From positions 434,001 through 498,000 of the forward strand of contig JALIZF010001730.1 of NCBI GenBank assembly GCA_029948255.1: 64,000 nucleotides of DNA, written 5' to 3'. Under the pieces are notes generated by a model that had not been told where the DNA came from, did not search any database, and was given only the letters and a program-made list of their open reading frames with translations. The stretch comes from Telmatactis stephensoni. Taxonomy: Eukaryota > Cnidaria > Anthozoa > Actiniaria > Isophelliidae. This document shows positions 22,901 to 25,900 of this stretch, piece by piece. How positions within the stretch are numbered: the stretch's first letter is position 1; each line of letters opens with the position of its first letter. A program made the translations under genes and the position numbers.

Positions 22901-25900
22901 ACCCCCTCCTCTAGCATGCAATTCCTTTATGGCAGGATATCAGAACCAAGAAGAACTTCACGTGATGTGACTCTTTGTCTGGCTTTTGGGCTAGCTAGCT
23001 TAAGAATTTTATTTTAGAAATTGTTCTTAGACTGCAAGCCACTTGCCAGCACTGAGCGTTTTGAATATTTACCATGCATTCGACTACCAGCAAGGAGCGA
23101 AGTCGTTCGAAATAACCCAAGGAGACGGTTCTAAAAGTTGCCAAAATGCTGGGTAACACGTCACATTTGGTCGCAGATTTTTAAGGGCGCGCGTCGGGTC
23201 TTCTGGTTATTTTATCCTTGGTTCTGCTGCATAAAAGGTGGATGTAGATAAAACAATAAAGGCCTTGTCCAATGAATGTATCGGCTGAATAAGGATTTAT
23301 CCAACGGATAGCTGATCGGCTAGGTGATAATAATGAGATGGTGGTGGTGATCAAAACTCGTTCTTTTTGTTCATTTTGTGATGATGATAACTTACAGAAC
23401 GTAGAGAAAGCAGTGCTGATGGGAGTCGATATGGTGATGATAATTACAGACTTTGTTGGCAATTAAGTATATAGTGACTATAGCCAGAAATATCACTCGC
23501 TTATTTTATAATCTGACGCCAGGAACATGATATGTACAAGCTCGTCATCGCAACCACTTGAGAGTGAATGATAACAGTGTCGTTCTTCAACACTCCGGAC
23601 AAATTTAGTTTGAGTGGAACCGTTGAAGTAGGAAACTGTTACCAACAGCAACACTAAAATTCGTTACGATAGCCATGATAAATTACTAACGACTAACTTA
23701 GACGGAACTAGATATAATTCACGACTCACCTGTGAACCATACAATTTTATTTTGCTCTGGATAGTTACTTTAGTCAGAGCAGTAGTCAAAGTACTTGTAC
23801 AGACAGAGATAATCACAATACCACATAACGTCCAACAAACTGCAAAAGTGCGACTCGCTGAACCACGGGGAGTTCTGTCGCCATATCTATTGACAAACAA
23901 ACAGTACTTTTAGGGATTACATTCACTTAAGTCTAGGATTCCATTCTGGTATAAACATAAATGCAAGAAACATACGCAGACTCATGACAGCGCACGTCTT
24001 AAGCTCGGTGTGCACGCGTTGAGAAACTGCGTGAGGAAATCTGCCACGCGAGTTACTTAGCTCAGACGATTTCTCGCGCGGCAGACGTTGCATCTTTGGC
24101 TACGCGAGGCCAAAAATAGAGCAAGTAAAAGAGCACACGGTGAGAAAAGTGCCTCGCGTGGGAGTTTCCTCACACAGTTTCTCAACGTGTGCGGCGGGTT
24201 AGAAAACGTGATGCATTTTTCCTGCAAATTTTTTATGCAACGTTTGCACGACTGCAGTTACACCGTGTGTCTACCCTTGCAACAGTTAGGCAAAACTAAA
24301 CAAGAAAAAGTTGCAAAAGTAGATCTCAAGTCTACTCCTGCAACTTGCGCGCAACTAATATATTGCAGGATGGACGCGCGCAAGGTTCAACAAGTTGTAC
24401 GGAACACTGTAGAAAAATTCACAGGAAACGTTGCATCGTATGTCCAGATCTTCGTTGCACACGGACATATTGGCCAGTTTTCGTTTGAGTGTGAAACGAA
24501 CCGTGATAACATTTATATAACATTTATATTCTTAATCGATATTAGAGCCGATTCCAGTTATATTGGACAGAGACTATACAGTAACTTTAACGTACTGAAC
24601 TACTTTGATTTCCGTCTGCATGGCTACTTTTCCACTATCCTAACTGTTGTTACGGTACGTCCATGGCATAATGTGATTATGTTTGTATTGTTCAGCACTA
24701 TCTTCAATTAAATTAACAAATTGAAGATAGTTTTCCATTGTCAGTACTCTTATTAATCATGGATGACGTCAAAAAATGTTCAAAACTAAAGTGGAACCAC
24801 GAGCGCAGCGAGTGGTTTCACTGCTAAGTTTTGGACATTTTTTGACGTCATCCATGATTAATAAGAGTACTGACAATGGAAAACTATCTTCAATTTTACA
24901 ACATTATCTTAGATCTTTTCCGTCCAAATCTGTTTGAAAAACTGTCCCAAACTTTTTTCTGTAAGGACGAGCGTGACATGTTGGCGTCAGCTATTGTCAG
25001 TACTCTTATTAACAATGGCTCTCGGCCAATCAGATTGCAAGATTTTAGTCAAATGTTGTAAAATAATGTTTGAACTACAAATCAAAGATACCCTTAAGCG
25101 CGCACTAGTAATTAACCACGGGTGTTTATCAAGATCCATAATTTCAAAATCTTCCATGACATAATTAAAAAAACCTTGCTACTCACCCCACTGTTGTCAT
25201 GGAAACAAACGACCACCATATGCCATCTTGAATTCCACTTAGAAAAGATCGTGGATAGTGCTTGGGATTTACACTTGAATCCTATAGATGTATGCCATGA
25301 TTGTGTTAACACCACAGACAACTTACTGTATAAGCTGAGTTTAAGCTTTAGTACGGTTGGTCAACTCTATTATTTTTGACGTTATTATTTGTTACTTTAC
25401 TTTATCGATAATCGATGATGTTTGATATTCATAGTCATTTTCAAAAATGGTTTCATAGATGCACTATATGATGGTTAGGGTATTTTAGTTAATTATTGAC
25501 TAAACTTCATTTCTTTCTTATTATTAGAGACCTAAGATTGACGGCAAACCGCTAACGACAAACGACAAAAATTGACTTTGATTTTAATTTTATATTTTAC
25601 TCTTATCCTTGAATCAATAAAACAAACAAGTAATGAACAAATCTCTTAAAGTCCCTATGACGCATATTTTTTTTATTTTCAAACTTAGTTCTTTTTAGAG
25701 AGCATAGTGAAGATCTTTTTATCCTGGTTTTCCTTACCCCATATTTTCTGAGATATGAAGGTTTCAAATGTCAAAATGCAAATTTAATGACGTCAGAGGA
25801 GGCAAACTTCTCATGGGTTTTACAAAACAAGGACTTCAATTCGAGAGCCAGATTTTTCATTAAACAACAGGCTTTGCCAATGGAAATGAGTTACAAATGG

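Follow-up and report, generated by a model that had tools for sequence, protein, structure and literature searches.

A putative GluR0/iGluR-type channel with a potassium filter at the membrane-proximal end of an FN3 adhesion-type protein in the anthozoan Telmatactis stephensoni

On the minus strand of a 64,000-nucleotide stretch of the actiniarian Telmatactis stephensoni (assembly GCA_029948255.1, contig JALIZF010001730.1, positions 434,001 to 498,000; hereafter the window, with coordinates counted from its first letter), we consider it likely that a receptor channel of the GluR0/ionotropic glutamate receptor (iGluR) type is encoded, which carries a potassium filter and sits at the membrane end of a stalk of FN3 domains, which is topped by SEA-like and probably also LamG/lectin-like parts. 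The same joint assessment covers the view that the 1381 residues modelled here form the C-terminal part of one animal gene. The exon chain, the filter, the homology of the S2 lobe (that of S1 more weakly), the fusion and a multigene family are each read from the DNA and from protein comparisons. K+-signature channels of the iGluR type are already known, namely GluR0 and AvGluR1, and what is new is the fusion to an adhesion ectodomain: no report of the family or the fusion was found in a search covering open-licence papers. An earlier sequence-only reading had drawn attention to the filter; the predicted position of the channel at the C-terminus of a SEA/FN3 adhesion-type protein and its place in a multigene family were absent from it.

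A Potassium Filter Split by an Intron

The sequence-only reading had proposed a K+-type filter within an animal channel of iGluR topology, interrupted by an intron in a glycine codon, and sequence, Pfam, profile alignment, hydropathy and paralogs all support it. The minus-strand exon 25281-25187 encodes DSSVNPKHYPRSFLSGIQDGIWWSFVSMTTV, with GIWWSFVSMTTV as its C-terminal residues, followed by the bases GG and a GTGAGT donor. The exon 23886-23730 on the same strand is preceded by CAATAG, starts with a single A and continues with YGDRTP (YGDRTPRGSASRTF...LYGSQ, again with GTGAGT behind it). Splicing from 25187 to 23886 inside the first Gly codon of the filter yields TTVGYGD, which together with its pore helix corresponds to the T(V/I)GYG signature of K+ channels; the sequence itself, the in-phase neighbouring exons and the splits seen in paralogs agree on this join. 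The filter is confirmed at the sequence level as real rather than fortuitous, because the exons for S1, M1, S2, M4 and the tail join in phase and 17 of 19 significant paralog places are split alike. A chance GYG within an FN3 domain was ruled out as the source; such a motif, TSVGYGN, is held by FN3 exon h, elsewhere in the gene. As to extent, the interval 23730..25281 first assigned to the whole arrangement does contain the pore helix, the filter and the inner helix, but the S2 lobe lies outside it, in exons 22300-22234 and 18628-18357.

In the 488-residue channel part, Pfam detects Ion_trans_2 with 50.5 bits (cut-off 22.5) and, marginally, Lig_chan with 31.0 bits (cut-off 30.8); on a shorter channel piece the latter drops slightly below the cut-off (30.4 bits), and among relatives it is likewise divided, with P0003, P0004 and P0007 above and P0008, P0021, P0036 and P0042 below. 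Four hydropathy stretches exceed the threshold, a weak one at residues 28-46 in S1 and three strong ones at 126-162, 196-230 and 377-404, which are taken as the putative M1, M3 and M4 helices, with the filter at 185-191. The resulting order of M1, filter, M3 and M4 is that of iGluRs.

Gene Model

Seventeen minus-strand exons (nine FN3 and eight channel exons), all of them open and with GT-AG ends, match in phase at 16 of 16 junctions and give an open frame of 1381 residues with its stop at 16675. Exon ends, picked by eye between a preceding AG and a following GT with homologs as a guide, were joined by script. Five of the nine FN3 exons are matched by Pfam fn3, and the remaining four align with FN3 domains of P0037. 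The last FN3 exon joins the first S1 exon in phase over a 247-base intron, and the first S2 exon, found with a piece of a homolog, fits the phases of both flanks. GTTTGT was taken as the donor of the first S1 exon because the resulting join fits P0017 and P0019 without gaps. The modelled gene spans at least 38981 to 16675 and very probably starts farther upstream. Its exons and candidate further exons are, from the 5' side:

44729..62640, minus: Pentaxin/LamG, MAM, TLDc, F5/8C and Fibrinogen_C exons, which may form the N-terminal portion of the channel gene (Pfam, and analogy to P0036, P0037 and P0045)
41280..41718, minus: LamG-like exon, probably of the same gene; phase-1 end at 41280, start unfixed; Laminin_G_3 21.1 bits, E 3.7e-4, below the cut-off of 27.6; possible donor GTTAGC
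40160..40278, minus: SEA-like domain, first part, phase 1 to 0 (by eye beside the SEA of P0030 and P0037)
39220..39362, minus: SEA-like domain, second part (FRQGSVVGNFTVSY), phase 2 to 1 (tblastn with the P0030 SEA, E 0.011 in 37 kb)
38691..38981, minus: FN3 exon a, phase 1-1 (Pfam fn3, 2.2e-9)
37032..37316, minus: FN3 exon b, phase 1-1 (gene model, match to P0037 FN3)
33558..33863, minus: FN3 exon c, phase 1-1 (gene model, match to P0037 FN3)
32378..32713, minus: FN3 exon d, phase 1-1 (gene model, match to P0037 FN3)
31214..31498, minus: FN3 exon e, phase 1-1 (gene model, match to P0037 FN3)
29943..30236, minus: FN3 exon f, phase 1-1 (Pfam fn3, 4.6e-11)
29321..29608, minus: FN3 exon g, phase 1-1 (Pfam fn3, 4.5e-11)
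28359..28652, minus: FN3 exon h, phase 1-1 (Pfam fn3, 9.1e-8)
27689..27991, minus: FN3 exon i, adjoining the channel, phase 1-1 (Pfam fn3, 1.7e-13)
27224..27441, minus: S1 lobe, first exon (S1a), starting ETCRC; weak donor GTTTGT chosen by P0017/P0019 homology
26349..26597, minus: remainder of S1 (S1b) and M1 helix (gene model, hydropathy)
25187..25281, minus: pore helix and first half of the filter, TTV plus GG of Gly (gene model, paralog scans)
23730..23886, minus: remainder of the filter (A of Gly followed by YGD) and inner helix M3 (gene model, paralog scans, hydropathy)
22234..22300, minus: S2 lobe, first exon (S2a, VAAIQNSPEFFLGKRKNAHVNE) (tblastn with a P0006 piece, E 9e-5)
18357..18628, minus: S2 lobe, second exon (S2b), with the conserved acidic residue in GILVDTY (P0012 70% identical over 30% of the query)
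17400..17574, minus: M4 transmembrane helix (gene model, hydropathy)
16675..16907, minus: basic helical tail, predicted to be cytoplasmic, and stop TAA (gene model, hydropathy)

Homology to Prokaryotic GluR0

A profile of the family was compared with 19 bacterial GluR0-type sequences (P0022 and 18 of P0080-P0101), a set taken from the profile search described below; a scan of genome contigs for GluR0-type loci found no relative. The two align collinearly through S1, M1, pore, M3 and S2 with an E value of 3e-45, which is pairwise and dominated by the pore, and the window channel thus shows the S1-M1-P-M3-S2 order of the GluR0/iGluR superfamily. With the lobes aligned on their own, S2 matches S2 with probabilities of 97.3 and 96.7, and S1 matches S1 with 64.7 when all members are used and 89.0 for the short members; reversed controls of the lobe matches give 0.1 to 0.6, and cross-matches give 0.2 and 1.3 for S1 to S2 and 68.0 and 12.3 for S2 to S1. 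The alignments thus support S2 homology well and S1 homology weakly, the latter mainly through collinearity. Bacterial P0022 furthermore aligns with GluA2 and GluD2 through S1, pore and S2 and therefore links the bacterial set to animal iGluRs.

Individual residues were compared in a hand-picked alignment of 52 family rows (the window, 28 longer rows, 27 of them with FN3, and 23 short ones) and the 19 bacterial rows, leaving aside 16 further rows as well as P0001 and P0005. The filter residues G, Y, G and D occur in all 52 family and all 19 bacterial rows, which had originally been found through the filter region; V occupies the third filter position in 45 of the family rows and L in the other 7, and the 16 rows left out likewise all carry GYG. 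The acidic residue of S2, which we take to bind the amino group of the agonist, is D in 47 (including the window) and E in 3 of the 52 family rows. Around the S1 Arg position, where the alignment is gappy, 31 of 52 family rows have a basic residue no more than two columns away. The Arg at this position is presumably the one that binds the agonist carboxylate, and because it appears mostly not to be kept in the family (see below), ligand gating may be changed or lost. The ligand site would accordingly be altered and perhaps accommodate something other than an amino acid.

The likeness to prokaryotic GluR0-type channels thus comprises the S1-M1-K+ pore-M3-S2 order, TTVGYGD and the collinear profile, whereas the window channel adds M4, a cytosolic tail, the FN3/SEA ectodomain and introns, and the agonist Arg appears mostly not to be kept in its family. 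As animal precedent, the sequence-only reading had cited a bdelloid rotifer iGluR with a K+ signature beside GluR0, and both agree with passages of PMC12332018, PMC11479355 and PMC12226733. These describe AvGluR1 of Adineta vaga (Janovjak 2011) as bearing a K+ signature, with K+ selectivity reported, in a four-transmembrane eukaryotic iGluR architecture, and AvGluR1 is the sole animal receptor of this kind named in those passages. By description, AvGluR1 and the window channel share animal origin, the four-transmembrane iGluR architecture and the K+ signature; AvGluR1 differs in being described as a eukaryotic-type iGluR, whereas the window channel has an adhesion ectodomain and is one member of a multigene family.

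A Multigene Family in the Same Genome

When the genome (483.5 Mb, 1782 contigs) was searched with the channel, using a query that lacked exon S2a, at least 126 exon matches were obtained, which group into at least 39 family-like loci (near-identical allelic copies counted). At least 26 further groups match mostly near the pore only, and some of these resemble ordinary voltage-gated potassium (Kv) channels. The split codon was then followed in 31 loci with four pore-exon and four M3-exon peptides as queries and no intron requirement, taking E < 1e-5 as significant. The pore-exon scan gave 26 places, 19 of them significant, and 17 of these 19 (the window and allelic copies among them; 12 distinct peptides by eye) end with TT(V/L)-GG at a GT donor. 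The M3-exon scan gave 20 places, 17 of them significant, of which 16 start with AG, one base and YGD; C91 is continuous. On the acceptor side, the base completing Gly varies between paralogs (A, G, C or T), and this is immaterial because GGN always encodes Gly. Since 17 of the 19 significant pore places are split identically, the split Gly codon is, as judged from these paralogs, an old intron common to the family.

The two other significant pore places deserve mention. At C91:460397 (minus; loci L006/L013), the pore exon runs straight into YGD, the only intron-free filter among the 19. The pore exon at C636:227963 (plus; L035) is normal through WWAYITY; beyond this, its end before the donor is altered and possibly frame-shifted, so that the copy may be broken, the assembly faulty or the filter of another kind. 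In C23 (612117 and 611998, minus), a second, weakly matching pore-exon-like piece with SFVSMATLG before its donor (E 0.71) lies 119 bases past the main pore exon and is perhaps a duplicated or alternative exon. Five K+-family loci lie on one strand within about 107 kb at C80:248890-356023 (plus), which suggests a tandem expansion; another match group at 365-367 kb lies on the opposite strand. This group and C91 are both among the groups that match mostly near the pore, and they are probably additional family members.

Relatives in Other Anthozoans

A first protein search gave 22 matches, with a query that lacked S2a and held a few intron-read residues before S2b; a long query, limited to the channel in its evaluation, gave 26 among the 7999 scored candidates sharing most words, and a profile search gave 344 at 1e-5 (8000 candidates scored), of which 120 were listed. 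The named sources among the matches listed are Montipora, Acropora, Stylophora, Pocillopora, Porites, Oculina, Desmophyllum, Actinia, Actinostola, Nematostella and Dendronephthya, all of which we take to be anthozoans and the last an octocoral. No named bilaterian member occurs among the 120 profile matches listed, where Ylistrum is the sole bilaterian to be named, with a Kv channel (P0121). Past the family members, the profile search reaches GluR0-type proteins of bacteria and, after these, plain K+ channels. The best identities to the window are 42-49% over the matched parts for named relatives, and 61% and 70% for two other fragments. Stand-alone relatives of about 460-500 residues also exist; such K+-signature proteins include P0008-P0021, P0098 and P0099, some on long contigs, and their source organisms may fall outside Anthozoa.

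In databases, the anthozoan relatives are often called "sidekick-like" or uncharacterized. Sidekick itself has Ig domains, an FN3 array and a single transmembrane helix, and no channel; the window gene, by comparison, has a channel after its FN3 exons, and no Ig model was found among the exons scanned. The "protein sidekick-like" entries P0023-P0026, P0028, P0033 and P0035 combine an FN3 array with a K+-signature channel that is 33-45% identical to that of the window and are, by this architecture, members of the family; their name presumably follows the FN3 repeats and overlooks the channel. The family accounts for such odd names, and likewise for "potassium voltage-gated channel subfamily A or B".

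Fusion to an Adhesion-type Ectodomain

Several single predicted proteins contain the proposed fusion, namely P0036 (Fibrinogen_C, SEA, FN3, channel), P0037 (Fibrinogen_C, LamG, MAM, FN3, channel) and P0045 (TSP1, Pentaxin/LamG, FN3, channel). FN3 and channel occur together in 23 of the 26 long matches, several of which are isoforms or paralogs of one species; the other three are different channels. In P0029 (1199 residues, longest contig 4070 bases) and P0042 (906 residues, 3250 bases) the frame is unbroken where genomic copies have introns, which suggests that these are spliced transcripts of FN3-channel fusions in relatives.

Within the T. stephensoni genome, a same-strand FN3-like frame accompanies 13 of 13 loci fetched by an S1-M1 match (the window being one of them) and none of the 17 fetched via later exons, this count covering loci L009-L038 (n = 30). 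None of 30 loci fetched via Lig_chan has one, though these are not a like-for-like control because the FN3 model derives from the FN3 exons of the window itself and the loci extend only 1.5 kb past the match. Directly upstream of the FN3 array, two SEA-like pieces lie on the same strand; the second, which has a phase-1 end, could be joined to FN3 exon a, and a small middle SEA exon is unplaced.

Descent and Alternative Explanations

Relationships were assessed with a tree of 56 hand-picked rows in which the filter was masked (P0028, P0038, P0057, P0013, P0054, P0121, P0122 and L046 excluded), and in which ordinary iGluRs were represented by six rows from this genome, GluA2 and GluD2. One clade (99/98) unites the 33 K+ family rows and a second (100/100) the eight ordinary iGluR rows; the bacterial rows do not form one clade. 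Constraining the K+ family and the iGluRs together costs only 2.6 log units and is not rejected by the approximately unbiased (AU) test (p = 0.255). As judged by this tree, the K+ family is distinct from ordinary iGluRs, with a sister relation not rejected. It could be that the channel is an ordinary animal iGluR whose pore acquired a K+-like filter by later mutation, and the shared M4-containing topology, the marginal Lig_chan match and the outcome of the AU test would all agree with this. The separate clades in the filter-masked tree speak against it, as does the end of M3, which in the window reads STLTTALT without the SYTANLAA of metazoan iGluRs; the motif YTA(N/E)L(A/T)A is found in nine of ten printed ordinary-iGluR frames, the tenth (L041) being a wrong frame. 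Separate genes of the genome also match Lig_chan far better (best 112.1 bits; 41 of 50 matches above the cut-off). We give such an origin a small though appreciable chance. Ordinary animal iGluRs (GluA2, GluD2 and those of this genome) thus share the M1, pore loop, M3, S2 and M4 topology and differ in their clade, their non-K+ filter and their YTANLAA-type motif. Among the exons scanned, no LIVBP-like N-terminal domain of the kind that marks metazoan iGluRs was found, and FN3 lies immediately 5' of S1.

The remaining alternatives concern the gene and its function. A pore that does not conduct selectively, with a K+-like loop that is structural and with signalling through a role as adhesion receptor, is conceivable in view of the long adhesion ectodomain and the conserved cytosolic tail, which might signal by themselves, but unlikely given the GYGD core in all 52 aligned family rows. 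A simple pseudogene was rejected on the open 17-exon frame to its stop, the GT-AG ends and the intact filter; the broader idea of a pseudogene or non-conducting relic could draw on the divergent S1 and S2, the agonist Arg that appears mostly not to be kept, the lack of observed expression and some weak selected splice sites, but with 17 of 17 exons open it appears very unlikely. Hardly more credible, and if anything slightly less so, is a division into two adjoining genes, FN3/SEA/LamG exons on one side and a stand-alone receptor on the other. Although stand-alone relatives of that size exist and no transcript was seen for the window gene, FN3 exon i joins S1 in phase over the short intron, all 23 of the long relatives aligned retain TCxC where S1 begins (exactly ETCRC in 15), and upstream FN3-like frames accompany all 13 S1-M1 loci. 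A voltage-gated channel was also rejected, the pore being flanked by two lobes rather than by a voltage sensor.

A GluR0/iGluR-type K+ channel at the end of an FN3 stalk is thus the reading we prefer, and a number of observations weigh against it. No Pfam ligand-binding model matches S1 or S2 of the 488-residue channel part, and the solved structures matched are K+ pores only (among the best 60 of 205 and the best 60 of 166). The cross-match of the family S2 to the bacterial S1 (68.0, over 21 columns) is no lower than the S1-S1 match for the whole set. In the gappy part of the alignment around the S1 Arg, R occurs in 18 of 19 bacterial rows but in only 3 of 52 family rows, with K in 11. The gene's N-terminus was not found, and no RNA was seen for the window gene. 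A consensus splice scan missed several of the chosen ends, including acceptors 25281 and 26597 and donor 26349, the S1a donor GTTTGT is weak, and the C636 paralog has the altered pore-exon end noted above.

Proposed Mode of Action

From this architecture (S1, M1, re-entrant TTVGYGD pore, M3, S2, M4 and a cytosolic basic helical tail) we infer tetrameric assembly, K+ selectivity, ligand, gating and physiological role as follows. Four subunits would build a K+-selective pore, and the outside cue might be a small ligand that enters the clamshell of S1 and S2, tension or binding relayed along the FN3 stalk, or both. Such a cue would shift the clamshell and open the M3 gate, and the ensuing K+ efflux would hyperpolarise the cell, opposite to the effect of an excitatory iGluR. 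More tentatively, and with the odds rather against so broad a scenario, anthozoans may have kept or acquired a GluR0-like K+ receptor lineage apart from the synaptic iGluRs and, having fused this lineage to adhesion/lectin ectodomains, expanded it into a contact- or matrix-gated hyperpolarising multigene family, in which surface recognition would lead to K+ efflux without a second messenger.

An anthozoan multigene family with the same filter as AvGluR1 would point to an established lineage, among animals, of glutamate-receptor-like channels that are K+-selective and potentially inhibitory, and would bear on the origin of iGluRs from GluR0-type channels. The adhesion fusion, for its part, would suggest that recognition or attachment is directly coupled to membrane potential.

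Other Features of the Window

Within the intron between S2a and S2b, an uninterrupted frame of 293 residues with many hydrophobic helices lies at 20510-21391 (minus) and has no convincing Pfam match (DUF2339, E 0.24), and a long TTTA microsatellite is found at about 19605-19800. Elsewhere in the window are two similar-looking single-exon genes for rhodopsin-type G protein-coupled receptors at 3709-4938 and 7618-8733 (both minus; 7tm_1 93.8 and 85.2 bits) and a LicD-family piece at 10246-10788 (minus; 45.9 bits). LamG and C-type lectin exons at 1131-2244 (plus) perhaps belong to another lectin-like gene near the window start.

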